A DNA stretch of 64,000 bases from Phycisphaerales bacterium (lineage in GTDB: Bacteria > Planctomycetota > Phycisphaerae > Phycisphaerales > UBA1924). Below, piece after piece: positions 7,061 through 21,455 of the stretch (the stretch's first letter is position 1; each line of letters opens with the position of its first letter). Under the pieces are notes generated by a model that was not told the origin of the DNA, ran no database searches, and saw only the letters and a list, made by a program, of their open reading frames with translations. The translations under genes and the position numbers were made by a program. The stretch spans positions 186,001 to 250,000 of the forward strand of contig JAHDXL010000006.1 in the NCBI GenBank assembly GCA_023382935.1, in the 5' to 3' direction.

Positions 7061-9850
7061 TCACGGCTCGCAGATGATCACGTCTGCCCGCCTCGTTTCC
7101 GGCTCGACGGTCCACTCCACCAGCCGCCGGCCCTGCACGCGCCCACTCACCGTCGTCTTGTACGGTGCTTGTAACTTGAAGTGGGCATCCCATCCTTCGG
7201 GCCACGCGGGCAGGAGGTAAATCGTCCGCCCTTCCGTCTGCATCAGCATGGTCTGCAGGGTGCGCATCAGCACTCCGCCGTGATCCTGGTCGGGAATCCA
7301 GTCGTAGTTGGGGCCCCAGAAGGCCTGAAAGCGAGAGCCTTCATGCTTGCTCCGTGCGCGCGCCACCAGGTTCTCGCGTGCCTGCTCGGCCAGCCCCAGG
7401 TAGGTCATGAACAGGTCGTCCTGCCGCCATCCGGCCGCGCCGCGATCCCAGCGATGCTCGAGCGCTCGCACGCCCAGGTCGCGCGTGCCCTTCTCGAAAC
7501 TCACCAGCCGGAAGGGAAACACCGCGTACAACTCGGGATTCTCGACGTTGCTCTTGTGGGCGAACCGCGCCGCCGGCGCCAGCATGCGCACACCATCGAC
7601 CTCCCGCGTCGGCAACGGGGGCACGCTCATGCGGACCTGCAACCACAGAGCGCGCATTTCAGGGGGCGTCAGGCGCGCGGGCAGCGCCACCAGACGCGTA
7701 CTCACGGCCTGAATCCCCGCGACCTCGGGCATCGGATTCGTCGTGTCCCACCACGTCTCCAGCGCCTGACTCGGGTCCATCACCAACTTGCCCTCGCCGT
7801 CAACCTCGTAATGCTCGATGAAGAAGCGCAGAACCTCGGTGGCCAGCGGCAGCGCTCGCTCGCGCAGGAAGGTTTCGTCCTGCGTGTGCTCGTAGTAATC
7901 GAGCATCATCCACGCCAGTTCCAGCCCACTCACCCATTCCCACTTGTGCCACGGGCTGGACTGCAACCGGTCGTCGCCGCGCTGGTGGAACGGCGTCCAC
8001 CCGTAACTCTCCGGAATCTGCCCGCCCCAGAAGTACACGCACTCGGGGATGAACAGCCCCCCGTGCCCGGTGTGCTGGCGCGTGCGAAACAGGTTCACAT
8101 GCATCATGTCATCGACATACATGCGGAACAGCGGAGCCATCAGGTCGAAGTCGCCGCTGGCGCACATCGACAGGTACGGCAGGCGCGTGTTCTGCCACCA
8201 GTAGCCCGGGCCCCAGCGCCGATAGTCGGCGTCGCCCCACGCGCCCTCGTGCGGCACGGTAAAGGTCGAACCGTTGAACTTGATCGGGTGCCGCCCTCGC
8301 CCCGCGCACGCGTTCACGTAACGCTGGAGCGCATAGCCGCGGCTGACAACCTCCGCATCATCGCTGGTGTCGATGGTCTGACTGGCGACCAGTACGCCGT
8401 TGACGAAGATCGCGATCAGCCCACTCGTCGGGTCGGCACTGGCGCACACGTGCGTCCATGCGTCGGGCGGCAGCGCATTCTCGACCCGCACGATGGTCGG
8501 TCCGATGATGAAACGCAACCCGTTGCCCGGGTGCGTGTCGAGCAGCCAGCCGTCGCTGGCCCCAGGCGTGATCCTGTCCACGATGCGAGCGCCGCCGGCG
8601 GGCGACACGCCGGGGTGCACCCAGGCTTCGATGCTCAGCCCGCCGCCGAGATCCCAGTCGTCCGAAGCAGCGATCGGCGCGCCATTCGAGCCGATGTCGG
8701 TGAAGAGTGCGTCCTTGATGTCTTGCAGCAGTTCGTGGGGCGCTGCCCGGCTCCAGGCCTGGATTTCGTCGGGTGTGGCCCCGCGCCCGAAGATGCTCAC
8801 GCGCCCGAGGCCGCCCACGAACTTGTTCTGCCCCCGCTGATCGACGCCGATGCGAACCATGTGAGCGTTCTTCGGCACCAACACGGGCGGCGACGGCTCT
8901 CTCGATGTCACCTCGATCCAACTCCGCTGCCAGAACTCGCGCCACCAGTCGTGGTGGGCGTCGCGGGCCCGCGCGATCGGAGTTTGGCCCGCCTCCGCGA
9001 TCTGCCGTTGCATCGACGCCAGCCACTTCTCCGGCGTCGAGGGGTGCTCGGTTCGCACATGTACGTCGATGCGGTGAACCGTGCCGGCCGCGGCACGCAG
9101 CGTGCCTGCATCCACACGCCGCCCGCGGTCGGCGGTCACCACCGCCCCAAACACGCGGTCACTCAGCGGATACGGCTTGCCCCTGAACGCCTCGGCGATT
9201 CCCTGCACCACCAACATCTCTGCAAAGGTGGATGCCTCGGTCGAGTGGTGATACCACCCGACGCGGTCCCCGGGTCCATCCAACAGCACGTCGCGGTCGA
9301 CGTACACCGTGCGGCGCAGGCGATTCGGCTGCGAAGGGTCTTCAAAGGTGTCGCTGACTTCGGCGTGCGGAATCGCCTGCCGCGCCGTTCGCCACGGCTC
9401 GATCACCACCGTCGCTGTGCGTGGGCTGGCGCTCTCCGCCTCGATGCGCACGACCGGGTGGTTGGCGTCCACCCACAGGCGCATCTCCACCGCCTGATCG
9501 CCGCGCCCCGCGCGAATGACCATCACGCCTGCTTCCAGGTCCAGGCGTTGTTCGAAGTCCACGGTGGGCAGCGCCGGTTCGAGCGTCACCCGCAGTCGGC
9601 CGACTTTCAACAAACGCCCGTGCACATCCCAACTGTCGGACTTTCCGACGTAGAGCAGCAGGTCGCCTTGGGGCTCGATCCAGGCGTTCACCGTGATGTC
9701 TCCGTTGCCCAGCGGCATGCTGCCATGGGCATCGGTGCTGGGAGTCTTCCACACGACGTCGTGCCGGGAGAGGTTTTGGCCCACCGACGGGGCCGTGCCG
9801 AGCAACCCGAGCACAAGCCACGAAACCAGGGGAATGGTGGGGGGTTTCAT
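7061..9850 (-). CDS. Exported DUF5703/GH95-like glycoside hydrolase with inserted LamG-like domain
   Basis: About 929 residues from the ATG at 9850, chosen because MKPPTIPLVSWLVLGLLG is a good Sec signal; an in-frame start 36 nt upstream adds only basic residues. The N-terminal region (VWKTPS, GSMPLGNGDI, AWIEPQGDLLLYVGKSD) is typical of the DUF5703 beta-sandwich in GH95-like planctomycete enzymes. A concanavalin/LamG-like segment lies at about 325-490 (FVGGLGRVSIFGRGATPDEI, LSIEAWVHPG, ASADPTSGLIAIFVNG). The (alpha/alpha) part resumes with RGYALQRYVNACAGRG, IKFNGSTF and WGPGYWWQNTR, and ends in a beta domain (LLPAWPEGWDAHF). Known: the family acts on plant or algal glycans such as fucosides; substrate not assignable here. 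It probably acts in the periplasm or outside the cell. Confidence 0.8.
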   Translation of the reverse strand: MKPPTIPLVSWLVLGLLGTAPSVGQNLSRHDVVWKTPSTDAHGSMPLGNGDITVNAWIEPQGDLLLYVGKSDSWDVHGRLLKVGRLRVTLEPALPTVDFEQRLDLEAGVMVIRAGRGDQAVEMRLWVDANHPVVRIEAESASPRTATVVIEPWRTARQAIPHAEVSDTFEDPSQPNRLRRTVYVDRDVLLDGPGDRVGWYHHSTEASTFAEMLVVQGIAEAFRGKPYPLSDRVFGAVVTADRGRRVDAGTLRAAAGTVHRIDVHVRTEHPSTPEKWLASMQRQIAEAGQTPIARARDAHHDWWREFWQRSWIEVTSREPSPPVLVPKNAHMVRIGVDQRGQNKFVGGLGRVSIFGRGATPDEIQAWSRAAPHELLQDIKDALFTDIGSNGAPIAASDDWDLGGGLSIEAWVHPGVSPAGGARIVDRITPGASDGWLLDTHPGNGLRFIIGPTIVRVENALPPDAWTHVCASADPTSGLIAIFVNGVLVASQTIDTSDDAEVVSRGYALQRYVNACAGRGRHPIKFNGSTFTVPHEGAWGDADYRRWGPGYWWQNTRLPYLSMCASGDFDLMAPLFRMYVDDMMHVNLFRTRQHTGHGGLFIPECVYFWGGQIPESYGWTPFHQRGDDRLQSSPWHKWEWVSGLELAWMMLDYYEHTQDETFLRERALPLATEVLRFFIEHYEVDGEGKLVMDPSQALETWWDTTNPMPEVAGIQAVSTRLVALPARLTPPEMRALWLQVRMSVPPLPTREVDGVRMLAPAARFAHKSNVENPELYAVFPFRLVSFEKGTRDLGVRALEHRWDRGAAGWRQDDLFMTYLGLAEQARENLVARARSKHEGSRFQAFWGPNYDWIPDQDHGGVLMRTLQTMLMQTEGRTIYLLPAWPEGWDAHFKLQAPYKTTVSGRVQGRRLVEWTVEPETRRADVIICEP

Positions 9851-9920
9851 GCCCGGTATTGTCCGCGATCGAGCCCGGACGGACATTGTCCACCGGGCTT
9901 GCCCACAGCCCGCCGCTCGG

Positions 9921-9931
9921 TATACTGTATA
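9921..9931. promoter_or_regulatory. Palindrome TATACTGTATA upstream of the Rrf2 gene, candidate operator/promoter
   Basis: TATAC-T-GTATA is a perfect 11-nt palindrome 35 nt before the Rrf2 ATG, in an otherwise GC-rich divergent gap. It could be an autoregulatory operator, or part of a -10 region. Position and symmetry are seen; function is inferred. Confidence 0.4.
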
Positions 9932-9966
9932 TGTCGATCCGTTTTTCCTAGATTGCGGAGGCAGGC

Positions 9967-10440
9967 ATGATCAGCCAAACATCGGAGTACGCGCTCCGCG
10001 CGGTGGTACACCTAGCCAAGGCCGGTGGCGGACCGGCTGTCGCACAGGAAATCGCCGACTCGACCCATGTGTCCGTGGGCTACCTCCACAAGATCCTGCG
10101 CCTCCTCGCTCGTAAGGGGATACTGGTCGCCCAGCGCGGCGTCGGCGGCGGTTTCAGCCTGGCTCGCGCGCCGGATCAGATCAGCGTACTCGACGTCCTG
10201 CGTGTGACGGAGAACGAACTGGTCCGCATCAGTACCTGCCCATTGGGCATCGAGGGACACTCGGAACTTTGCCCGCTCCACCGCATGCTCGATAACCAGA
10301 TCGCGGCAATCGAGAAGGTCTTCGAGTCGACCACCATCGGAGAGTTGCTGGCGGGCCCGTCCTCTCCCGGGAACCGGGGAACGCTGTGTACTCCCGCCAG
10401 TCGCCCTGTGCCGCTGACGCGCGCCAAAGACATGGATTAG
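9967..10440 (+). CDS. Rrf2-family transcriptional regulator
   Basis: 157 residues. The N-terminal winged helix is classic Rrf2 (MISQTSEYALRAVVHLA, VSVGYLHKILRLLARKGIL, RGVGGGFSLAR). The sensor region has C91 in STCPLG and C102-P-L-H105 in ELCPLHRML. Known: IscR, NsrR and relatives ligate an Fe-S cluster with cysteines here; only two cysteines plus H105 are in this stretch, the next cysteine being far downstream in a loose tail. It lies immediately upstream of the nos gene cluster with 120 nt between. Inference: an Fe-S based sensor of nitric oxide, redox state or O2 that controls N2O reduction, comparable in role to NsrR. Confidence 0.9.
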   Translation: MISQTSEYALRAVVHLAKAGGGPAVAQEIADSTHVSVGYLHKILRLLARKGILVAQRGVGGGFSLARAPDQISVLDVLRVTENELVRISTCPLGIEGHSELCPLHRMLDNQIAAIEKVFESTTIGELLAGPSSPGNRGTLCTPASRPVPLTRAKDMD

Positions 10441-10481
10441 CAAAGCAGTTTTTCGATATCTACTTGTCTTGTATAGCCGAG

Positions 10482-10493
10482 GAGAATATTCTC
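10482..10493. promoter_or_regulatory. Perfect palindrome GAGAATATTCTC before the nos cluster, candidate Rrf2 operator
   Basis: A 12-nt perfect inverted repeat sits 67 nt upstream of the cytochrome ATG, within an unusually AT-rich 120-nt gap after the Rrf2 gene. Rrf2 proteins bind AT-rich dyads near promoters, so it is a reasonable operator candidate. No binding data. Confidence 0.5.
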
Positions 10494-10560
10494 AGGGCTG
10501 AATAGTGGATAACCAGATACATAAACACACAATAGGACCGGTGGGGTCCAGAGGTCGAGA

Positions 10561-11700
10561 ATGCACGGGCTGGCAGGACGGGGAAAGGCGGCGGTCGATG
10601 GTGATCCTCATCGCGTGCCGGCGATACTGGCGGCCACGGTGTTGGTGACGACGTTGCCGGTGCTCATGGGGGCGGTCCTGGTTCTGGCCCCCAAGAGCCC
10701 GCCGGCGGAGCATCGCTTTGCCGCGCAGGCGGCGGCCATCGGCGTCAGCCCGGTTGCGATCGAATTGGGCGAAGCCAACTACCGCGTGGCGTGCGCGACC
10801 TGTCACGGGATGGACGCTCGTGGGGTGCCGCATTTGGGCAAGCCATTGCGCAACAGCGCCTTCGTGCAGGACAGCAGCCCCGAGGCGCTGTTCGCGATGA
10901 TCAAGCGCGGGCGTGCGCCCGGAGAGGCGGGCAACACGACCGGCGTCCTGATGCCCCCGCGGGGCGGGCGTCCGGACCTGAGCGACGCGGACCTGAGCAA
11001 CATCGTTGCATATGTGCGGAGTCTTCAGGAACCGGGGCAGCCGACGGCGGCGATGGACAACTGGGCCACGCCGCTGGCTGGACCGGCGGCCGGTGTACCG
11101 AGCGGACCTGAGGCGGCGCTGTTCGTTTCGTCATGCTCGGCCTGTCATGGCGCTGACGGGGGCGGCGTGGAAGGCCTGGGCAAGTCGTTGAAGGACAGCG
11201 TGTGGGCCAAGGGCAAGAGCGATGACGAACTGCTCGCGTTCATCAAGCAGGGGCGTCCGATCTGGGACGCGGAGAACACGACGGGCATTGACATGCCTCC
11301 CAAGGGCGGCAATCCGGCGCTGACGGACGAGGATCTGCGCAACATCATCAAGCACATTCGGGTGCTCGAGGGCGCTGAGCCCGCTGCGGCGCCAGGTGCT
11401 GCGGAGACTGGTGTTCTCAGCGGGCCCGGTGCGAGTTTGTTTGTCTCGTCGTGCTCGGCCTGTCACGGCGTCCTGGGAACGGGCGTCGAGGGTCTGGGCA
11501 AGTCGCTGAAGGACAGCGCGTGGGCCAAGAGCAAGCGCGATGACGAACTGCTCGCGTTCATCAAGCAGGGTCGTCCGGTCTGGGACGCGGAGAACACGAC
11601 GGGAGTTGACATGCCTCCCAAGGGTGGCAATCCGGCGTTGGCCGATGACGACCTTCGGTTGATTATCGGGTATATTCGGCGACTTCAGGGTCAGGAGTAA
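10561..11700 (+). CDS. Membrane-anchored tri-haem c-type cytochrome of the nos cluster
   Basis: 379 residues. One N-terminal hydrophobic segment (about 22-43) serves as signal or anchor, followed by three cytochrome c domains with CATCH (78-82), CSACH (192-196) and CSACH (298-302). Each has a distal MPPxGG motif that supplies the likely Met ligand. Domains 2 and 3 are near copies spaced exactly 106 codons apart, with an Ala/Pro linker between, so they arose by recent internal duplication. It lies 44 nt upstream of nosZ on the same strand. Known: clade II nos clusters often include cytochromes c that hand electrons to NosZ. Inference: a periplasmic electron wire from the quinol/bc1 pool to NosZ. 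Confidence 0.9.
   Translation: MHGLAGRGKAAVDGDPHRVPAILAATVLVTTLPVLMGAVLVLAPKSPPAEHRFAAQAAAIGVSPVAIELGEANYRVACATCHGMDARGVPHLGKPLRNSAFVQDSSPEALFAMIKRGRAPGEAGNTTGVLMPPRGGRPDLSDADLSNIVAYVRSLQEPGQPTAAMDNWATPLAGPAAGVPSGPEAALFVSSCSACHGADGGGVEGLGKSLKDSVWAKGKSDDELLAFIKQGRPIWDAENTTGIDMPPKGGNPALTDEDLRNIIKHIRVLEGAEPAAAPGAAETGVLSGPGASLFVSSCSACHGVLGTGVEGLGKSLKDSAWAKSKRDDELLAFIKQGRPVWDAENTTGVDMPPKGGNPALADDDLRLIIGYIRRLQGQE
11125..11697 (+). repeat. 318-nt internal tandem duplication encoding cytochrome domains 2 and 3
   Basis: The haem codons at 11134 and 11452 are 318 nt apart. Long stretches are identical at DNA level, for example GATGACGAACTGCTCGCG and the region encoding ENTTG then MPPKGGNPAL. Domain 1 of the same gene is much more diverged. 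Confidence 0.75.
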
Positions 11701-11744
11701 CTCCGGGGCGTGAATCGGCCATCGAGCCGCGAAAGGAAGTACTC

Positions 11745-13721
11745 ATGAGGCAGCAAGGGTCACAGGGAACCGGATGGAAACTCGCAGTCGGGCTGATCGT
11801 TGCGCTGTCCGGCGTGGCGGCAGGTCAGGGCATGAAGGATGTCGAGGCCGTCGCCAAGGAGCGTGGCCTGTCGGCCGCCGACCTGCTGGCGGCCGCCAAG
11901 ACATACACGCCCAGTGGCATGAAGGACGAGTATGTGATCTTCTCGTCGGGCGGGCACTCGGGGCAGGTGTTTGTGATCGGAGTGCCGTCGATGCGCCTGT
12001 TGCGGACGATCGCGGTGTTCACGCCGGAGCCTTGGCAGGGATGGGGCTATGGTGTGGGCAACGACATCCTGGCCGAGGGCAACGTGAACGGCAAGCCCAA
12101 CCTGTGGGGCGACACGCACCACCCGGCGATCTCGGAGACCAAGGGCGACTACGACGGGGAGTTCCTGTTCATCAATGACAAGATCAACGCGCGCATCGCG
12201 GTGATCGACCTGCGGGACTTCGAGACCAAGCAGATCGTGAAGAATCCGCTGACGGTGAGCGATCACGGCGGCGCGTTCGTGACGCCCGACACCGAGTACG
12301 TGATCGAGGGGGCGCAGTACGCCGTTCCGCTCGGTTTTGACTACGCGCCCATCAGCGAGTACAAGGACAAGTACCGCGGCTCGGTGACGATGTGGAAGTT
12401 TGACCGCAAGGCCGGACGCATTGACAAGTCGCAGTCGTTTGCGCTGGAACTGCCACCCTACTGGCAGGATCTGGCCGACTCGGGCAAACTGGCCAGCGAA
12501 GGTTTCTTCTTCCTCAACTCGCTGAACACGGAGATGGCCACGGGCGGCATCGAGAGCAAGCAGCCTCCGTTCGAGGCGGGCGTGAGCCGCAACGCGACGG
12601 ACTATCTGCACATCGTCAACTGGCACAAGGCTGAGCAAGCCTTCAAGGACGGGAAGGCCGAGATGATCAAGGGCTTCCCGGTGCTGCGGATCCAGACTTT
12701 GATCGACGAGGGCATTCTGTTCCTCACGCCAGAGCCGCGCAGCCCGCATGGTGTGGACGTGGCGCCCAAGGGTGACTTCATCGTGGTGGCCGGCAAACTC
12801 GATCCGCATGTCTCGGTGTATTCGATCGACAAGATCAAGAAGGCCATCGCGGACAAGAAGTACTCGGGCAGCGATGATTACGGGATTCCGGTGCTGGATT
12901 TCGACGCGGTGATCGAGGCGCAGGTGGAACTGGGCCTTGGGCCTCTGCACACGCAGTTCGGGCCTGACGGGTATGCCTACACCTCGCTGTTCCTGGATTC
13001 GGCGGTGGCTCGTTGGACGCTGGGCGGCAGTTACGGCGCGGGCACGCCCGAGCCCGACTGGACGCTGGTGAGCAAGACCTCGGTGCATTACAACGTCGGG
13101 CACATCGGCGCGGCGGAGGGCGACACCGTCAGCCCCGACGGCAAGTACTTGGTGGCGTTCAACAAGTGGTCGGTGGATCGGTTCCTCCATCCCGGCCCGC
13201 TGCTGGCGCAGAACTTCCAGTTGATCGACATCAGCGCCCAGGGCACCACCATGCCGGTGATCTACGACATGCCCATCGGCATCGGCGAGCCGCACTATGC
13301 ACAGATCATCAAGGCCGACAAGCTCAAGCCCTGGAGCGTGTACCCGGAGGTCGGCTGGGATCCGCACAAGCAGGCGATCGACCCGATGGCTCCGAAGCCC
13401 AAGCAGGAGAGGATCGAGCGCAAGGATGGTCTGGTGGAGATCTACGGGACCGCGGTGCGCAGCCACTTCACGCCCGAGCATGTGACGGTCAAGCAGGGTG
13501 ACAGGGTGGTGTGGCGTATCACCAATGTCGAGCGCGCGGTCGACGCGATTCACGGCTTTGCCATCCCGGCGTACAACATCAACCTCAGCCTTGAACCGGG
13601 CGAAACCGCGAAGATCGAGTTCGTGGCCGACGTTCCCGGCACCTTCCCGTTCTACTGCTCCGAGTTCTGCTCGGCGCTGCACCTGGAGATGATGGGCTAC
13701 CTCATGGTGGAACCCAACTGA
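11745..13721 (+). CDS. nosZ: Nitrous-oxide reductase, clade II (Sec-dependent) type
   Basis: 658 residues. The N-terminus has a plain Sec signal (WKLAVGLIVALSGVAAGQG) without a twin-arginine motif, a hallmark of clade II (atypical) NosZ. The seven-bladed propeller region shows conserved CuZ-type strings: GDTHHPAISETKGDYDG, VSDHGGAF, SPHGVDVAPKG, LGPLHTQFG and VHYNVGHIGAAEGD. The C-terminal cupredoxin carries the CuA site: C638, C642, H646 and M649 in YCSEFCSALHLEM, with an upstream His in the HGF segment. It reduces N2O to N2 in the periplasm. AGGAAG precedes the ATG. Maturation genes follow directly. Confidence 0.97.
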   Translation: MRQQGSQGTGWKLAVGLIVALSGVAAGQGMKDVEAVAKERGLSAADLLAAAKTYTPSGMKDEYVIFSSGGHSGQVFVIGVPSMRLLRTIAVFTPEPWQGWGYGVGNDILAEGNVNGKPNLWGDTHHPAISETKGDYDGEFLFINDKINARIAVIDLRDFETKQIVKNPLTVSDHGGAFVTPDTEYVIEGAQYAVPLGFDYAPISEYKDKYRGSVTMWKFDRKAGRIDKSQSFALELPPYWQDLADSGKLASEGFFFLNSLNTEMATGGIESKQPPFEAGVSRNATDYLHIVNWHKAEQAFKDGKAEMIKGFPVLRIQTLIDEGILFLTPEPRSPHGVDVAPKGDFIVVAGKLDPHVSVYSIDKIKKAIADKKYSGSDDYGIPVLDFDAVIEAQVELGLGPLHTQFGPDGYAYTSLFLDSAVARWTLGGSYGAGTPEPDWTLVSKTSVHYNVGHIGAAEGDTVSPDGKYLVAFNKWSVDRFLHPGPLLAQNFQLIDISAQGTTMPVIYDMPIGIGEPHYAQIIKADKLKPWSVYPEVGWDPHKQAIDPMAPKPKQERIERKDGLVEIYGTAVRSHFTPEHVTVKQGDRVVWRITNVERAVDAIHGFAIPAYNINLSLEPGETAKIEFVADVPGTFPFYCSEFCSALHLEMMGYLMVEPN

Positions 13722-13805
13722 TTCCCCCTACGGTCGTTTCCCGTCGAAAGGCGGGCAACGGCTTTGCCCGCGGCGATTTCGCCACGGCGATTGCGAGGTG
13801 CCCTT

Positions 13806-14474
13806 ATGTCAGCGACGATGATCGATCGAATCGTCGGTCCGCGCGTCGAGCCGACGGAATTTTCCCGGCGCGGGCTGCGCTACGGCACGCCTGGATTTCT
13901 GCTGCTGGTTGCCCGCGTGCTGCTGCTGGTCTCGCTCTTCCTTCCGTACTGGCATATGGCGCTGCACGCCCCGCAGTATCCGGAAAACCTGCATCTGACC
14001 GCCTACATCAACACACTGACCGGTGATGTCGCGGAGATCAACGGGCTAAACCACTACATCGGCATGCGTCCGCTGGAAGAGGCCGCCCAGTTCGAACGCA
14101 GCATCGGTGTGTACGCCATGATCGGCATGGTCGTGCTGCTCGAACTGGCCGCGTTCATCCATACCAAGTGGGCGGCCCTGCTGGTGATTCCGGCAATTCT
14201 CTTTCCCGCGGTGTTCCTCTTCGACCTGCACTACTGGATGAGCAATTTCGGGCAGAACCTTGATCCGACGGCCCCGCTTTCGAACTCGATCAAGCCGTTC
14301 GTGCCTCCCATTCTCGGCGAAGGTATCATCGGTCAGTTCAAGACCGTCGCGTCGGCGGGGCTGGGCCTGTACCTGGCGTGTGCCGCGTCGGTGGTTCAGG
14401 TGGTGGCGCTGTACTTCCACCGGCGCGCGTATCGCCCGCTGGTGCTGGCTAAGAGGGCGAGCGTGTCGTCATGA
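13806..14474 (+). CDS. Four-helix membrane protein of the nos cluster (NosB-like candidate)
   Basis: 222 residues from the ATG at 13806 with GAGGTG just upstream. There are about four transmembrane segments (near residues 30-48, 95-116, 120-138 and 180-200). Distinctive conserved-looking strings lie outside the membrane: LPYWHMALHAPQYPE, TGDVAEINGLNHYIGM, and DLHYWMSNFGQNLDP. Multiple His, Met and Tyr residues on one face could bind copper. Its position between nosZ and nosD, overlapping nosD by 4 nt (ATGA), ties it to N2O reduction. Clade II clusters carry a membrane protein called NosB at this location; identity with it is inferred from position, not established. Confidence 0.8.
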   Translation: MSATMIDRIVGPRVEPTEFSRRGLRYGTPGFLLLVARVLLLVSLFLPYWHMALHAPQYPENLHLTAYINTLTGDVAEINGLNHYIGMRPLEEAAQFERSIGVYAMIGMVVLLELAAFIHTKWAALLVIPAILFPAVFLFDLHYWMSNFGQNLDPTAPLSNSIKPFVPPILGEGIIGQFKTVASAGLGLYLACAASVVQVVALYFHRRAYRPLVLAKRASVSS

Positions 14475-15865
14475 GACGCCGGACCGTGGGCATCCTGGTG
14501 TGCCTGCTGGGCGTGGCGCTTGCGCCGGCGGGCGAGGGCACGCCCGAGTCTCAAGCCCGACCGGTCTCCGACATCGTCGCATTGATCGAGGCCGCTCCTG
14601 CGGGGGCGACGGTTGACGTTCCACCCGGCCTGTATCGCGGCAGTCTCCGCGTCCGACGCCCGGTGGTGCTGCTCGGGCACGGGCAGGTGACGATTGACGG
14701 CGGGGGGCAGGGCAACGTCGTGGAACTGCTGGCGCCCAACATCACTTTCCAGGGCTTCACGGTCCGGGGGTCTGGCAGCGGAGTCGATCGGGAGCCGGCC
14801 GGCATTCGCGCCGAGACCGGGCCGGTGATCATCGCAGAGAACAGGCTCGAGGATGTGCTCTTCGGTATCGACCTGCGCACGGCCAGCAACTCGGTGGTCC
14901 GCAACAACGTCGTCGTGGGCAAGGACATGGACCCCGGGCGCCGCGGCGACGCGATCTGCCTGTGGTCGAGCCACGAGTGCGTGGTGGAGGGCAACCGTGT
15001 CCGCCAGGCGCGCGACATGGTGTTCTGGTATTCAGAGAATGTCGACGTGCGCAACAACGAGGTGTCTGACAGCCGCTACGGGCTGCACTTCATGTACAGC
15101 CACAACACGACGCTGCGCGACAACCACGTGTGGGGCAACTCCGTGGGCGTGTACCTGATGTACAGCAACGCCATCACGCTGATCGAGAACACCATGGAGC
15201 GCAACCGCGGCCCGAGCGGTTACGGCATCGGGATCAAGGAATGCGACGACGTCGAGATCCGGTCCAATCGCATCATCGCCAATCGCGTCGGGGTGTATGT
15301 GGACAACGCGCCGCTCAGTCAGGGCGCGTTCGGGCGCGTGCATCAGAACCTGATCGCCTACAACGAAGTCGGCATGCTCATGGCGCCGAGCAACCACTCG
15401 CAGCAGACTTGGAACAACGGCTTCATCGAAAACGAGCAGCAGGTGGCGACCAATGGCCGCGGCAACCTGCTCGCCAACGAGTTTCACGTCGATGGCCGCG
15501 GCAACTACTGGTCAGACTACGCCGGATTTGATCGTGCTGGCGACGGCCGGGGCGACGTGGCGTATGTGTCGCAGAGTCTGTTTGAGGATTTGATGGCGCG
15601 CGAGCCCAACCTTCGGCTGTTCATGCACAGCCCGGCCCAGCAGGCCATCGAGTTCACGGCGCGGGCCCTGCCAGTGATGCTCCCGCAGCCGAACTTTGTG
15701 GACGAACACCCGCTCATGACGCCACCGCAGGTGCCAGGCAGGACCGTTTCACCCGGTCCAACGGGGCGCATGGGCGCGTTGTGCGCAGGGTTGCTCGTGG
15801 CGGGTGCGCTGGTGATGCTGGCCGGCACCGAGCCCATCTCGCGCATGCAAGGAGCACGATCATGA
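14471..15865 (+). CDS. nosD: NosD, periplasmic copper-site maturation protein
   Basis: 464 residues. It has a signal peptide followed by a right-handed parallel beta-helix (CASH/PbH1 repeats) with the characteristic NosD strings RLEDVLFGIDL, RRGDAICLWSS, VFWYSENV, GLHFMYSHNTTLRDN, GVYLMYSN and GYGIGIKECDDV. A C-terminal hydrophobic segment near 437-453 may anchor it. Known: NosD works with the NosFY ABC transporter to supply sulfur/assemble the CuZ centre of NosZ. It overlaps the preceding gene and nosF by 4 nt each, so it is translationally coupled in one operon. Confidence 0.95.
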   Translation: MRRRTVGILVCLLGVALAPAGEGTPESQARPVSDIVALIEAAPAGATVDVPPGLYRGSLRVRRPVVLLGHGQVTIDGGGQGNVVELLAPNITFQGFTVRGSGSGVDREPAGIRAETGPVIIAENRLEDVLFGIDLRTASNSVVRNNVVVGKDMDPGRRGDAICLWSSHECVVEGNRVRQARDMVFWYSENVDVRNNEVSDSRYGLHFMYSHNTTLRDNHVWGNSVGVYLMYSNAITLIENTMERNRGPSGYGIGIKECDDVEIRSNRIIANRVGVYVDNAPLSQGAFGRVHQNLIAYNEVGMLMAPSNHSQQTWNNGFIENEQQVATNGRGNLLANEFHVDGRGNYWSDYAGFDRAGDGRGDVAYVSQSLFEDLMAREPNLRLFMHSPAQQAIEFTARALPVMLPQPNFVDEHPLMTPPQVPGRTVSPGPTGRMGALCAGLLVAGALVMLAGTEPISRMQGARS

Positions 15866-16743
15866 TCCGGGCCGAGCGGGTGACGATGAAGTTCGGGCGC
15901 GTCGCGGCCGTCAACGGCGTCAGTTTCGAGGTCGCGCCGGGCGAGTCAGTGGCACTGTGGGGCAGCAACGGGGCAGGCAAGACCACGCTGGTGCGCTGCC
16001 TGCTGGGCATCTTGCGCGCCCGCGGGCGCATCGAGGTCGGTGGCTGCGACGCGCGTCGGCGCGGCAAGGCACTTCGGTCTCTGGTCGGCTACGTCCCGCA
16101 GGAACTGGCCTTTCACGACGACACGCGGCTGGGATCGGCGATGAGTTTCTTCGCGGGTATCCGTCGCGTGCCGGTGTCGCGCGCCCGCGAACTGCTGGAC
16201 CAGGTCGAACTCGACGGGCACGAGCGCAAACGCGTCCGCGATCTTTCCGGCGGCATGAAACAGCGCCTGGCCCTGGCCGTGGCCCTGCTGGCCGATCCCC
16301 CGCTCATTGTGCTCGACGAGCCGACTTCGAATCTCGACGCCGCCGGACGGGCGGCGGTGATGAAGTCGCTGGTGGCGCTCAAGCAGCGCGGCAAGACCAT
16401 TCTCTTCGCCTCGCATCGTCCCGACGAAGTCGCATCGCTGGCCGATCGTGTGCTGGTGCTGAAGCGCGGACGGCTGATCGAGGACACGCGCCCGAGCCTG
16501 CTCTGGCCGAGTGAAGCGGGTGTGCTGACGCTGCGCCTGTTCGTGGATGCGGAGCGGGAGTCGGACGCCGCGGGCGTGCTGCGCGGCGCGGGACACCTGG
16601 TCAATCTCAACGGGCACGGGCTCTGTGTGGCCGTCCCGGGCGATCGCAAGGCCGAGCCCATCGAAGTGCTGCATCGCAGCGACATCCGCGTGCGCGACTT
16701 CCAGGTGCTCGCCGACTATCAACCCGATTGGAGCCGATCATGA
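15862..16743 (+). CDS. nosF: NosF, ABC transporter ATPase for NosZ maturation
   Basis: 293 residues from an ATG preceded by GGAG and overlapping the nosD stop by 4 nt. Seen: Walker A GSNGAGKTT near residue 34, signature LSGGMKQR near 130, Walker B LIVLDEPTSNLD near 150, and an H-loop in FASHRPDE. The C-terminal extension (about 215-293) is typical of NosF/CcmA-like ATPases. It pairs with the permease NosY encoded next. Confidence 0.95.
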   Translation: MIRAERVTMKFGRVAAVNGVSFEVAPGESVALWGSNGAGKTTLVRCLLGILRARGRIEVGGCDARRRGKALRSLVGYVPQELAFHDDTRLGSAMSFFAGIRRVPVSRARELLDQVELDGHERKRVRDLSGGMKQRLALAVALLADPPLIVLDEPTSNLDAAGRAAVMKSLVALKQRGKTILFASHRPDEVASLADRVLVLKRGRLIEDTRPSLLWPSEAGVLTLRLFVDAERESDAAGVLRGAGHLVNLNGHGLCVAVPGDRKAEPIEVLHRSDIRVRDFQVLADYQPDWSRS

Positions 16744-17618
16744 GCAGTGGTGCGGTTCAGACAGCAGTTCCCCTGCCACGGCCCTGCTCGGCCGCGCGCA
16801 ACGTGATCTCTTTCGCTCGCCGCGAAGTGCGCGACGCCGTGAGCAGCCGCTGGTTCGTGCTGTGCACCGGGGCCTTTGCCGTGCTGGCGGTCGGCGTGTC
16901 GTTCATGTCGCTGGCCGGTTCGGGATCGTCGGGCTTTGCCGGGTTTGGGCGCACGACCGCGGGCCTGCTCAACATGATCATGCTCATCGTCCCGCTGATG
17001 GCTCTGGCGGCCGGCGCGGGTTCGATCGCCGGCGAACGGGAGCGCGGCACGCTGCTCTACCTTCTGGCCCAGCCCGTGTCGCGTCTGGAACTGCTGCTGG
17101 GCAAGTACCTCGGCCTGGGGATCGCGCTCACCGGCTCGTTGTGCATCGGGTTCGGGCTCAGCGCCGGCGTGCTGGCGGCCAAGGCCGGTGGCGCCGACGC
17201 GGCCGCCATGCTCATGCTCGTCGCATTCACCTGTCTCCTGGCGTGGGTGATGTTGAGCGTCGGCATGGTGGTTTCGGTCGTTTCGCGCAAGGTAGCCGTT
17301 GCCACCGGCGTGGGTCTGTTCGTGTGGCTGGCACTGGTGTTCGTGAGCGACCTGGGCCTGATGGCCGGTGCGATTGTCTTCAAACTGCGGGTGCAGGAAC
17401 TGTTCATCGTCGCCATGCTCAACCCGCTCCAGGCGTTCAAGATGGGCGTGATCGTGCAGATGAACGCCTCGCTCGACGTGCTCGGGCCTGCGGGCATGTA
17501 TGCCTCGCAGACCTATGGCCGCACGCTGCCGTGGATGCTCGTGGGCGTCCTGCTCGCCTGGGGCGTGCTGTCTCTGGCCGCCGCCGGAGTGCTGTTTCAG
17601 CGGAAGAAGTCGATATGA
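16740..17618 (+). CDS. nosY: NosY, ABC transporter permease for NosZ maturation
   Basis: 292 residues with six likely transmembrane segments. It contains GERERGTLLYLLAQPVSR, the coupling-helix motif of ABC-2 type permeases of the NosY family. The end shows LNPLQAFKMG followed by two helices and a basic tail. The ATG overlaps the nosF stop by 4 nt; a TTG 12 nt upstream is less likely. Partner of NosF and NosD. Confidence 0.94.
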   Translation: MSSGAVQTAVPLPRPCSAARNVISFARREVRDAVSSRWFVLCTGAFAVLAVGVSFMSLAGSGSSGFAGFGRTTAGLLNMIMLIVPLMALAAGAGSIAGERERGTLLYLLAQPVSRLELLLGKYLGLGIALTGSLCIGFGLSAGVLAAKAGGADAAAMLMLVAFTCLLAWVMLSVGMVVSVVSRKVAVATGVGLFVWLALVFVSDLGLMAGAIVFKLRVQELFIVAMLNPLQAFKMGVIVQMNASLDVLGPAGMYASQTYGRTLPWMLVGVLLAWGVLSLAAAGVLFQRKKSI

Positions 17619-18094
17619 AATATCGAACTGCTGCTGCCTTCATCTGCGTTCTGTTCGCTGGCGCTGCTCTCTGGGGCTGCGCCAGGGTGGACCCGCAGGC
17701 GCCGCCGGACGTGACCTACGGCGTGTCGGTGTGCGCCGACTGCGGCATGATCATCAGCGACGAACGCTATGCGACCGCGCTGGTCGTCGAAGATGCGCGC
17801 GGAAGGCCGGAAGTGCTGCTGTTTGATGACGCCGGCGACCAGATCATCTACGAACGTGAAAACCAGACCGGCAAGGTGCTCGCACGCTGGGTGCATGACC
17901 AGCAGACGCGAGAGTGGTTGCGGGCTGAATCGGCCTGGTACATGCGCGCCAAGTCGCTCCCGACACCGATGGCCTCGGGAATCGCCGCCTTCGCTCAGAA
18001 GGCAGATGCCGAGCGACTGGCAGGTGCCCACAATGGTGTCGTGCTGACATTTGAAGAACTGTGGTTCGCCCCGCCGCCGACTTCGAAACCCTGA
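17615..18094 (+). CDS. nosL: NosL, copper-chaperone lipoprotein
   Basis: 159 residues. The lipobox LWGC gives a lipidated Cys22. The copper-binding motif C40-A-D-C43-G-M45 with MIISDERYA follows, as in NosL. Known: NosL is an outer-membrane or periplasmic lipoprotein that delivers Cu(I) to NosZ. The ATG overlaps the nosY stop by 4 nt, making it the last gene of the cluster. The next 243 nt (to 18337) hold no recognised element. Confidence 0.95.
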   Translation: MKYRTAAAFICVLFAGAALWGCARVDPQAPPDVTYGVSVCADCGMIISDERYATALVVEDARGRPEVLLFDDAGDQIIYERENQTGKVLARWVHDQQTREWLRAESAWYMRAKSLPTPMASGIAAFAQKADAERLAGAHNGVVLTFEELWFAPPPTSKP

Positions 18095-18337: not shown

Positions 18338-19366
18338 TCATTCCACCACCCACGTCTCGTCGCCGTGGAGGAGGTGTTCGAGCGTGTCGCCCTTGCAGGC
18401 CGATTTCATCTTCGCCTGTGCGATCTGGCTGAAGACCAGTTCGTCATAGGTGGCGGCACCCGGCCTTGCGAACAGCACGCCCATCGGCTCGGGCAGGGCC
18501 GGATGTGCCATCTGAGTCAGGAGGAAGGCCAGGTTCGGATCGGTCTCGTCGTGCACCAGAAGGTCCGATTCATCGACGCCGTCGCCCAACCTCGCGCTCG
18601 TGAGCGTGCCGCCCTTGATCCGGATGCCCCGGTCGCGGTCGGGTCCGAAAATCAGCGGCTTTCCGTGTTCGAGCGTGACGGTGTTGGCCTCGCGGGTCTC
18701 CTTCTGGCTGGCGTAGAAGAAACTGCCGTGGTTGAAGATGTTGCAGTCCTGGTAGACCTCGATGATCGACGTGCCCTTGTGCGCCACCGCGCGCGCAATC
18801 AGCGTCTCGAGCATCTTCACGTCCACGTCAAGCGTGCGCGCGATGAACTGGCACCCGGCCGCCGCCGCCACCGCCAGCGGATTCATCGGGAAATCCAGAG
18901 AGCCCATCGGCGTTGACTTGGTCACCTTACCCACCTCGCTGGTCGGCGAGTACTGCCCCTTGGTCAGCCCGTAAATGCGGTTGTTGAGCAGGATGATCGT
19001 CATGTCAACATTGCGCCGGATCGCGTGAATCGTGTGGTTGCCACCGATCGACAGCAGGTCGCCGTCGCCCGACACGATGAACACGTGCAGATCCGGGTTG
19101 GCCAGTTTCACGCCCGTCGCCACGGCTGGAGCTCGCCCGTGAATGGTGTGGAGCCCGTAGGTGTTCATGTAGTACGGAAACCGGGCCGCACACCCGATCC
19201 CCGAGATGAACACAAACTTCTCCCTCGGAATCCCCAGCCCGGCCAGCGCCTTGCGCACGCCGGTGAGCACGGCGTAGTCGCCGCACCCCGGACACCAGCG
19301 CACGTCCTGGTCCGATGCAAAGTCCCTGGGCGTGTACGAAGGCAGAGGAATATTGGCGGTCGTCAT
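18338..19366 (-). CDS. korB: 2-oxoacid:ferredoxin oxidoreductase subunit beta (KorB-like)
   Basis: 342 residues. It has CPGCG at 25-29, the thiamine-diphosphate motif GDGD at 100-103 with NN at 128-129, and the substrate/TPP region GIGCAARFPYYMNTYG. The YGLTKGQYSPTS string is typical of 2-oxoglutarate:ferredoxin oxidoreductase beta subunits. It starts 11 nt after the alpha gene, so the two form one operon. Known reaction: 2-oxoglutarate + CoA + oxidised ferredoxin to succinyl-CoA. 2-oxoglutarate rather than pyruvate specificity is inferred from similarity in style to KorB. Confidence 0.9.
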   Translation of the reverse strand: MTTANIPLPSYTPRDFASDQDVRWCPGCGDYAVLTGVRKALAGLGIPREKFVFISGIGCAARFPYYMNTYGLHTIHGRAPAVATGVKLANPDLHVFIVSGDGDLLSIGGNHTIHAIRRNVDMTIILLNNRIYGLTKGQYSPTSEVGKVTKSTPMGSLDFPMNPLAVAAAAGCQFIARTLDVDVKMLETLIARAVAHKGTSIIEVYQDCNIFNHGSFFYASQKETREANTVTLEHGKPLIFGPDRDRGIRIKGGTLTSARLGDGVDESDLLVHDETDPNLAFLLTQMAHPALPEPMGVLFARPGAATYDELVFSQIAQAKMKSACKGDTLEHLLHGDETWVVE

Positions 19367-19377
19367 GGCGTCTCCGT

Positions 19378-21270
19378 TCAGCCCTTTGTGTCCATCATCT
19401 CACGCACCTCGTTCACGATGCTGTCCACGCGGAACGAGCGCCCGCGCACATGGTTGATCCCCCGCGCGTCGATCAGGAAGCGCGAGCGAATGATCAGTCG
19501 CAACTGCCCCAGGTTATTCTCCGGGATGACGACCTTCCCGAAGCGGCGCAGCACCTGCTCCAGGTTGCTCGGCATGGGGTTGAGATAGCGCAGGTGCGCC
19601 GTGCTTACACTCAGGCCCGCTTCTCGCAGCCGGTCCCCTGCCGTCGCGATCGCCCCGAACGTCGAGCCCCAGCCCAGGATCAGCACGTCACCCGACTCCG
19701 GTCCGCGCACCTCCAGCGGCGGTATCGTCGCGGCCGCCCGGTCGATCTTCTCCTGCCGCAGTTTGACCATCGCCTCGTGATTGGCCGGGTCATACGACAC
19801 GTTCCCGGTCAGGTGCTGCTTCTCGAGGCTTCCGATGCGGTGCTCGAGCCCGGGCGTTCCCGGCAGCGCCCACGGGCGCGCCAGCGTCCGTTCGTCACGC
19901 GCGTAGGGCTGATACACCCCGTTGACCCTGGCCTCCGGCCCGGGATGCGACACCGGGATCTCCGCGATCGACTCCAGCGAGGGGATCTTCCACGGCTCGG
20001 CCCCGTTGGCAATATATCCGTCTGAGAGCACGATCACCGGCGTCATGTGCCTGATTGCCAGCCGTGCCGCCTCGATCGTCATGTCGAAGCAGTCCGAAGG
20101 TGTCGCCGGCGCCACCACGATGCACGGACACTCGCCCGGCCGTCCGAACAGCGCCTGCAGCAGGTCGGCCTGCTCAGTCTTGGTTGGCATGCCCGTCGAA
20201 GGCCCGGCCCTCTGCACGTCAAACACCAGCAGCGGGAGTTCGTAAATCACCGCCAAGCCCAGGCCTTCGCTCTTGAGCGCCAGACCCGGTCCCGACGTGG
20301 CCGTCACGCCCAGTTGACCGGCGTAACTGGCACCAATGGCCGCGCACATTGCGGCAATCTCGTCCTCGGCCTGAAAAGTCCTCACGCCCAAGTGCTTGAG
20401 CCGCGCCAGCCCGTGCAGGATCTCCGACGCCGGCGTGATCGGATAGCCCGCGAACACCACGTCTTTGTTCGCCTTGGCCGCCACCGTCGCCAGCGCCAGC
20501 ACGATGGCGTGGTTGCCGCTGATGCGCCGGTATGTCCCCGGCCTGGTCGGGGCGGGCGCCACCTCGTAGCGCGTCGGGAACAACTCGGCTGTTTCGCCGA
20601 AGTAGTAGCCCGCCTTGAGCACCATCGCGTTGGCCGCCGCCACTTCTGGCCGCTTCTTCGAGCCGCCGTAGTAGGCATCAAACCGCTCGAGGGTGGTGTC
20701 GATCGGCCTCTGGTACAGCCAGTACGCGATGCCCAGCGCGAACATGTTCCGGCAACGGTCCATGTCCTTGGTGCCGATATTGATCCCCGCCAGCGCTTCG
20801 CGCGTCAGGCGGCTCATGGGCACGCGAAAAATCTGGTACTTGGCGTTCAGCGTCTCGTCCGCGAGCGGGTTGTATCCGGCCGGATACCCGCACTTGCCCA
20901 GGTTTACTGGCGTGAACTCGTCGGAGTCGGCGATGATGATGCCGCCCTCCTCCACGTCGTGCAGGTTCACCTTGAGCGCCGCCGGGTTCATCGCCAGCAG
21001 CACATTGACCATGTCGCCCGGCGTGTGGATGTCAGTGCTGGAGAACTGCAGTTGAAAGCCCGAGACGCCAAAGGTGGTCCCGCGCGGCGCGCGGATTTCC
21101 GCTGGAAAGTCGGGAAAGGTCGCAATGTCATTGCCCACGATCGCCGACGTGGAAGCAAACTCGCCGCCGGCGAACTGCATCCCGTCGCCCGAATCGCCCG
21201 CAAAGCGAATGACCACCGCGCCCACCGGCATGGCCGGCTTCGCCCCCGTTCCCGTCATCGTCTGACTCAT
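19378..21270 (-). CDS. korA: 2-oxoacid:ferredoxin oxidoreductase subunit alpha, gamma-alpha fusion (KorA-like)
   Basis: 630 residues. The N-terminal ~190 residues form the gamma domain (VIRFAGDSGDGMQFAGG, APRGTTFGVSGFQ). They are fused to the alpha pyrimidine-binding domain (FAGYPITPASEILH, FQAEDEIAAMCAAIGASYAG, TATSGPGLALKSEGLG, QRAGPSTGMPTKTEQ) and a C-terminal transketolase-like domain (ILGWGSTFGA, VVIPENNLGQL). The ATG at 21270 is preceded by GGAG; a start 30 nt upstream is less likely. It is first in a two-gene operon with korB. No ferredoxin subunit gene is adjacent, so a separate ferredoxin is needed. Confidence 0.93.
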   Translation of the reverse strand: MSQTMTGTGAKPAMPVGAVVIRFAGDSGDGMQFAGGEFASTSAIVGNDIATFPDFPAEIRAPRGTTFGVSGFQLQFSSTDIHTPGDMVNVLLAMNPAALKVNLHDVEEGGIIIADSDEFTPVNLGKCGYPAGYNPLADETLNAKYQIFRVPMSRLTREALAGINIGTKDMDRCRNMFALGIAYWLYQRPIDTTLERFDAYYGGSKKRPEVAAANAMVLKAGYYFGETAELFPTRYEVAPAPTRPGTYRRISGNHAIVLALATVAAKANKDVVFAGYPITPASEILHGLARLKHLGVRTFQAEDEIAAMCAAIGASYAGQLGVTATSGPGLALKSEGLGLAVIYELPLLVFDVQRAGPSTGMPTKTEQADLLQALFGRPGECPCIVVAPATPSDCFDMTIEAARLAIRHMTPVIVLSDGYIANGAEPWKIPSLESIAEIPVSHPGPEARVNGVYQPYARDERTLARPWALPGTPGLEHRIGSLEKQHLTGNVSYDPANHEAMVKLRQEKIDRAAATIPPLEVRGPESGDVLILGWGSTFGAIATAGDRLREAGLSVSTAHLRYLNPMPSNLEQVLRRFGKVVIPENNLGQLRLIIRSRFLIDARGINHVRGRSFRVDSIVNEVREMMDTKG

Positions 21271-21455
21271 GCCGCCCGCTCCCCGAGAAATGAGGAACAC
21301 CGCAGCCGCGCCGGCTGCGGACCGTCGTCAGTCTACCGCGTCATCCCCCGGCGTCCATCCTCCGGCAGCGCGATGCCCAAAAAGACAGGCGTCGGCCCAC
21401 GCCGCCGCCTGCTGCTCCATCAACCGCCCGCACGCCGCCCGACCGGCATGCCCGA

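Follow-up and report, generated by a model that had tools for sequence, protein, structure and literature searches.

A clade II nos operon of a Phycisphaerales bacterium and its predicted Rrf2-type operator, which recurs at nrfHA

The reductase NosZ constitutes the main known biological sink of nitrous oxide (N2O), a strong greenhouse gas. To our knowledge, little is understood of how clade II nos operons are switched on in bacteria that do not denitrify. Here, a window of 64 kb (contig C6, positions 186001-250000) from a Phycisphaerales metagenome-assembled genome (MAG; 3.72 Mb in 35 contigs, 95.4% complete) is analysed, which contains a nos cluster headed by the gene of an Rrf2-family regulator, together with a predicted 20-bp dyad operator, GATATnTnnATnnAnATATC, upstream of both rrf2 and the cytochrome-nos operon. 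Because the same dyad is present in the nrfHA promoter of this genome, joint control of nos and nrfHA is predicted; a short operator common to both in one lineage makes the question of regulation testable.

The nos locus and its products

An earlier note on this DNA had described a complete nos cluster led by an Rrf2 regulator in a planctomycete-type genome, and all eight genes it listed are indeed found at window positions 9967-18094 (Table 1), the source being a Phycisphaerales MAG. The ATGA overlaps by which it saw the last five genes coupled are present at all four junctions (nosB/D, D/F, F/Y and Y/L).

Table 1. Genes and predicted operators of the nos locus (positions in the window)
Feature	Position	Strand	Evidence
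Predicted operator before rrf2, TATATGTCGATCCGTTTTTC	9928..9947		10.5 bits; p 0.003 vs dinucleotide shuffles
rrf2, Rrf2-family regulator, predicted Fe-S sensor	9967..10440	+	TIGR00738 102.4 bits, cut-off 73.3
Predicted operator before cytochrome-nos operon, GATAACCAGATACATAAACA	10508..10527		8.4 bits; p 0.017 at width 20, 0.030 at width 18
Tri-haem c-type cytochrome, putative NosZ electron donor	10561..11700	+	three CxxCH
nosZ, clade II (Sec) nitrous-oxide reductase	11745..13721	+	TIGR04246 828.6 bits, cut-off 625
nosB, four-helix membrane protein	13806..14474 (TTG start at 13764 also possible)	+	predicted claudin/TARP-like fold
nosD, periplasmic beta-helix copper-site maturation protein	14471..15865	+	TIGR04247 405 bits, cut-off 300
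nosF, ABC ATPase	15862..16743	+	Walker A, LSGGM and Walker B present
nosY, ABC-2 type permease	16740..17618	+	PF12679 116 bits
nosL, lipoprotein, presumably a copper chaperone	17615..18094	+	PF05573 48 bits, cut-off 24; lipobox-like LWGC

NosZ passes the cut-off of the Sec-type profile (E-value 2e-249, chance excluded) and remains far below those of the Tat-type profile TIGR04244 (382.4 bits; 625) and of L-NosZ (192.2 bits; 700). Upon inspection of the sequence, for which no signal-peptide predictor was run, no twin-arginine pair was seen at the N-terminus. Alignment to solved NosZ places H603, C638, C642, H646 and M649 at the CuA centre and seven histidines (125, 126, 174, 335, 402, 453 and 517) at CuZ, residues which we take to be the respective copper ligands. 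In a tree of 62 rows, for which L047 and L048 were dropped and only six were kept of the loci with numbers above L056, a set rich in Campylobacterota, the four Tat-type NosZ are grouped apart with 100/100 support, while the NosZ of the window lies among those of Phycisphaerales. By profile and tree, this NosZ is of the Sec-dependent clade II type, as the earlier note had read it, and N2O reduction is predicted. Two MAGs titled Cyanobacteria bacterium CYA N2_1 (L005) and Leptolyngbya sp. PLA1 (L026) have a NosZ inside the Phycisphaerales in this tree; their titles are probably wrong.

For comparison, 204 nos loci were confirmed by their NosZ and the best 80 of these were fetched, 40 of which carry a NosZ that is 88-67% identical to that of the window. 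Most of the nearest public NosZ, among these 40 loci, belong to MAGs whose titles read Phycisphaerales or Planctomycetota, and NosZ above the Sec-type cut-off occurs in 54 of the 201 genomes of the same order, own genome included; hence, the nos cluster is ordinary for its group and another example of an already known type. Clade II nosZ with nosB and non-denitrifying Planctomycetota have been described (PMC11409646), and the present cluster resembles the clade II nos clusters in passages of that paper in its NosZ type and Sec export, in a nosB that immediately follows nosZ, in nosDFYL, and in that no nosR is seen in the cluster, while differing from them in the tri-haem cytochrome and the Rrf2 gene at the head of the locus. 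Metagenomic clade II nos scaffolds from Ushuaia Bay, which are enriched in Rrf2 regulators (PMC6264515), likewise have an Rrf2 gene and a c-type cytochrome beside nosZ; the passages of that paper concerned give neither an operator nor a ligand set nor a link to nrf. In the open-access literature searched, it was the only paper found on nosZ, clade II and Rrf2 together.

The cytochrome contains CxxCH motifs at residues 78, 192 and 298 and is, thus, tri-haem as previously noted. The third haem looks like the product of an internal duplication, since haem domains 2 and 3 are 78% identical in DNA, as opposed to 58-60% to domain 1. Two CxxCH motifs are present in 34 of 37 cytochromes of relatives, counted in one frame; in L005, the nearest relative, the match is split into two pieces, and a third motif may be present.

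NosB, the four-helix membrane protein noted directly downstream of nosZ, matches no Pfam or NCBIfam family. Its identity to 33 NosB sequences of other nos clusters ranges from 90 to 27%, and W49, P56, P59, N82, H83, G86 and M87, among others, are invariant in the 34 sequences. Its structure model (predicted local distance difference test, pLDDT, 95.3) has four long transmembrane-type helices. The best 50 Foldseek rows, only two of them with E <=0.001, comprise claudins, TARP/stargazin, GSG1L (AMPA receptors), DUOX1-DUOXA1 and GARLH4 complexes, and a designed claudin fold; in VIA-align, 48 of 50 rows name claudin, TARP or GSG1L and the other two AMPA-receptor complexes, with Z up to 10.8 (root-mean-square deviation 3.8 over 163 residues), where Z below about 13 may reflect a common helix arrangement. 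A claudin/TARP-like fold is predicted from the model, and these structural matches suggest that NosB might be an assembly partner. No paper joining NosB, nitrous oxide reductase and claudin was found in the open-access literature searched.

The Rrf2 regulator and its predicted operator

The regulator is recognized by the Rrf2 family profile PF02082 (100.3 bits, cut-off 30) and passes that of TIGR00738. It scores 40.4 bits against the NsrR equivalog NF008240 (cut-off 182), which is why it is not classed as NsrR and is predicted only to work like NsrR, and 52.1 bits against the IscR profile TIGR02010 (cut-off 207.6). The three invariant Cys ligands of NsrR are missing; C91, H98, C102 and H105 are present instead. 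In an alignment of the protein with 29 nos-linked homologues, E7, Y8, C91, C102, H105 and D109 are found in 30/30, H98 in 29/30 and C141 in 27/30 sequences, the sole exception at H98 (L024) having a Cys two residues earlier. C-x6-C takes the place of the C-x6-H of the window in the Rrf2 of a Bacteroidota nos cluster on a Tunicatimonas plasmid, in Rrf2 proteins of G208, G210 and G211, and in the Rrf2 that this genome encodes next to cbb3. Since these carry a Cys there, H98 most likely occupies the place of a predicted cluster ligand.

Two further Rrf2 genes are encoded in the genome besides the nos-linked one, and the C/H/C/H pattern recurs in unlinked Rrf2 paralogues, including C4:295691 of the own genome. 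Another Rrf2 protein of this pattern is encoded in G044 next to a hemerythrin-domain gene, with the NorCB-like genes some 3 kb away. The idea that the ligand set is special to nos-linked Rrf2 was, therefore, rejected; judged by these motifs, it is shared by a wider Rrf2 subfamily. Of the sensor described in the earlier note, C91, C102, H105 and the unusual ligand set stand, while H98 and C141 were not listed there and the set is not peculiar to this gene. The third own Rrf2 gene (L003 2907-3166; G000:C2) is divergent from the gene of the fused cbb3 oxidase.

A structure model of Rrf2 (pLDDT 86.7) matches RsrR, CymR, IscR and NsrR, with RsrR ranked first by Foldseek and CymR by VIA-align. We take the ligand positions of RsrR to differ from those of the present Rrf2. 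For the RsrR of Streptomyces venezuelae, spectra have been compared with those of [2Fe-2S] clusters that have one or two His ligands; as a point of difference, its targets include no NO-detoxification genes in the passages given (PMC5015018). NsrR, the nitric oxide (NO)-sensing Rrf2 protein (structures 5n07 and 7b0c), has the motif gATGyAT-N5-ATrCATc (PMC1274295), and the present system is like it in fold, N-oxide gene targets and an A/T-rich dyad whose arms begin with GAT; it differs in having C/H/C/H for NsrR's three Cys and an evenly spaced dyad with GATAT arms.

Taking the single best match per locus, we found rrf2 in 29 of the 40 nos loci that share at least 67% NosZ identity with the window; it lies upstream on the same strand (12), divergently (5) or downstream of nosL (12). 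At the same threshold it was found in 0 of the 40 other fetched loci, some of which are on short contigs and in which a distant Rrf2 may be missed, as was that of Tunicatimonas.

The dyad is the new part of this work and, as an operator, a prediction. It was obtained from 36 upstream regions of nos operons, a set restricted to loci with a cytochrome match before nosZ and without L013, L037 and L040 (start codon unclear or different gene order), in which a first motif search put it well above shuffles. A symmetric 20-base matrix was then trained on ten distant nos promoters, namely nine with rrf2 downstream of nosL plus L031, the contig of which is too short to show rrf2; 25 other promoters were held out for scoring, with p values referring to dinucleotide shuffles, and L033, a near copy of L030, took part in neither group. 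Among the held-out promoters, 16/25 reach p <=0.05 at width 20 and 14/25 at width 18, the training group having been picked after a first look at all 36, so that the hold-out covers the matrix weights and not the idea. At least 8 bits are scored by 12/25 held-out promoters, by 0/71 intergenic control regions that precede other genes at these loci, and by 0/200 A+T-matched control draws (repeats allowed). Throughout the window, just the two places listed in Table 1 score this high. Of the 12 rrf2 genes downstream of nosL, only that of L026 has its own site with p <=0.05, as is expected if rrf2 shares one transcript with nos. The window promoter also has a perfect 12-bp palindrome, GAGAATATTCTC, at 10482-10493, which was not the result of the motif search and is not taken up as an operator. 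Divergent from rrf2, on the minus strand at 7061-9886, lies a gene, named by eye, for a large secreted glycoside-hydrolase-like protein, with the operator at 9928 in the shared intergenic region.

Nitrite ammonification and other N-oxide genes

The genome encodes NrfH (162.9 bits, curated cut-off 134.2) and NrfA (379.8 bits to PF02335), and the organism can probably reduce nitrite to ammonium. In the nrfHA promoter, a dyad site of 16.0 bits lies 86-67 bases before the nrfH start, the sole place above 6 bits in 16 kb scanned. When the 3.72-Mb genome was searched for GATAT-N4-AT-N4-ATATC (12 defined bases, up to two mismatches), 12 places were found, of which the nrfH site is the only one with a single mismatch; 10 of the 11 others are inside open reading frames, and a reversed control pattern gave 0 places. 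At the nrfHA locus of a member of the same genus, a site of 12.2 bits is located at -88, nearly the own position. On these grounds, one Rrf2-type nos-nrf regulon is predicted. The co-occurrence of the two pathways is in line with it: NrfA matches occur in 66/201 genomes of the order, and 35/201 have both NosZ above the cut-off and NrfA, more than the 17.7 expected (p 1e-8, uncorrected for kinship); in 12 of these 35, the best matches of the two are at most 20 kb apart. A nitrite ammonifier with an N2O reductase is also known from Bacillus sp. DNRA2, which carries nrfA and nosZ (PMC10653820); it belongs to another phylum, and the abstract of that paper does not mention a shared Rrf2 operator. 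No paper joining Planctomycetota, nosZ, nrfA and Rrf2 was found in the open-access literature searched.

Neither nirS (cytochrome cd1) nor nirK (copper nitrite reductase) has a match in the genome, and one molybdopterin-family match is short (46 bits over 101/353 profile positions); with a genome that is only about 95% complete, such absences are not certain. Three haem-copper proteins were found, namely a CtaD-like aa3-type oxidase (653 bits to TIGR02891, just below the cut-off of 671; no dyad site of at least 6 bits around its gene), a fused cbb3 CcoNO and a NorB-like protein. As the earlier note had stated for nir and nor, no match of these searches falls inside the window; a full denitrification pathway was not found in the genome either, as nir is missing.

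The NorB-like protein (459 residues) is preceded by the gene of a small c-type cytochrome with a 4-base overlap, the NorC-like product of which scores 16.7 bits to PF22085, below the cut-off of 29. The NorB-like protein itself matches the superfamily model PF00115 (40 bits, cut-off 34.8) and no NCBIfam model, so no curated NO-reductase family, and a PDB sequence search gave one chance match (E 0.078). It keeps the His-His pair and an HGT...H motif; two positions beyond the final conserved His it has a Met, whereas cytochrome c-dependent NO reductases (cNOR) carry His at this position. It occurs in 12/201 genomes of the order, 10 of which have NosZ above the cut-off against 3.2 expected (uncorrected for kinship), and a more distant version (24-30% identical) lies a few kb upstream of nosZ in two genomes, L016 (= L140) and L141. 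Because of this co-occurrence and vicinity, a putative role of the NorCB-like pair as NO reductase appears likely, and the organism may reduce NO. Beside the pair (L004 455-2271 / L085 8127-9943; G000:C7) are genes that look, by eye, like those of ResB/CcsA-type cytochrome c biogenesis.

Proposed control and alternative explanations

The best overall explanation, which we consider likely though far from secure, is a clade II nos operon under an NsrR-like Rrf2 switch, the dyad of which is shared with nrfHA. NosZ would be exported by Sec and take up electrons from the tri-haem cytochrome c, its presumed donor. It is established that the copper-sulfide centre of NosZ is delivered via NosL, NosD and NosFY; NosB would be the membrane assembly partner. 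We infer an Rrf2 dimer with an Fe-S cluster on C91, H98, C102 and H105, with C141 or E7 of the partner subunit as alternative ligands, which in its intact state would act as a repressor at the dyad before rrf2 and the cytochrome-nos operon. NO, another N-oxide or a redox signal would alter the cluster and thereby release the nos operon, and the dyad at nrfHA would place nitrite ammonification and N2O reduction under joint control. A more specific version, a distinct Rrf2 subfamily used by Phycisphaerales, with a Cys2His2-type (Rieske-like) site instead of three Cys, that serves as an N-oxide switch at GATAT-N10-ATATC and joins nos and nrfHA, with NosB as a claudin-fold assembly partner, is tentative. 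Experimental work would best be aimed at the predicted nos-nrf operator and at the Rrf2 subfamily with the C/H/C/H set, the cluster itself being of known type.

Several observations weigh against the proposed switch. The two sites of the window are imperfect (10.5 and 8.4 bits), and 9/25 held-out promoters have p >0.05 at width 20, including the one before the cytochrome of L005, the nearest relative (p 0.14; 0.010 before rrf2). In the genome search, two of the two-mismatch places inside open reading frames score above 8 bits (11.3 and 8.3), and a search of the genome with a covariance model of the dyad stayed without a match at E 10, models of 20 bases and sequence only having low power in 3.7 Mb. 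At nrfH, the site is patchy in relatives, reaching p <=0.05 in 10/29 and at least 8 bits in 4/29 (29 of 30 nrfHA loci, the own locus excluded), and the co-occurrence figures of NosZ and NrfA are uncorrected for kinship. Finally, the NorCB-like operon has no dyad site of at least 6 bits.

A binder other than the nos-linked Rrf2 is conceivable, because sites persist in loci in which no nos-linked Rrf2 was found (L016, L025, L032 and L034) and the two further own Rrf2 genes, one with the same C/H/C/H motif, offer alternative binders. Binding by another regulator, be it the C4 Rrf2 paralogue, the cbb3-side Rrf2 or a member of another family, while the nos-linked Rrf2 controls, e.g., Fe-S assembly, would also fit a weaker site of 9.4 bits in the region that separates the cbb3 gene from the neighbouring, divergent Rrf2 gene. 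We nevertheless hold this to be unlikely, given that one of the two window sites precedes rrf2, that the rrf2-nos linkage survives changes of place and orientation, and that the locus of the C4 paralogue (L122) has no site of at least 6 bits; moreover, among 14 genomes searched, the sole one without an Rrf2 match (that of L011, n=1) likewise lacks a site that reaches significance (p 0.22 and 0.33).

That the dyad might reflect no more than the A+T richness of promoters in related sequences is suggested by an A+T content of 0.50 in the nos upstream regions against 0.40 in controls and by the relatedness of many loci (L032 is nearly a copy of L034, and L018, L020 and L022 resemble one another closely); as dinucleotide shuffles and A+T-matched draws fall short of the observed scores, and as high-scoring places are confined to two in the whole window, this is improbable. 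About equally improbable, if not slightly more so, is the suggestion of the earlier note that the organism may only consume N2O, with no other N-oxide step. The missing nirS and nirK matches and the lack of any haem-copper protein in a curated NO-reductase family speak in its favour, but with NrfHA and a divergent NorCB-like pair in the genome it goes too far, and a genome without N-oxide genes besides nos was rejected accordingly. With NrfHA, the organism is no longer pictured as a pure sink of N2O but as a bacterium that probably ammonifies nitrite and can remove N2O.

Adjoining the nos cluster at window positions 18338-21300, on the minus strand, are the alpha and beta genes of a 2-oxoacid:ferredoxin oxidoreductase, named by eye. 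In L016 (1093-4019), 2-oxoacid:ferredoxin oxidoreductase genes are found in another arrangement, directly before the norCB-like genes upstream of nos.

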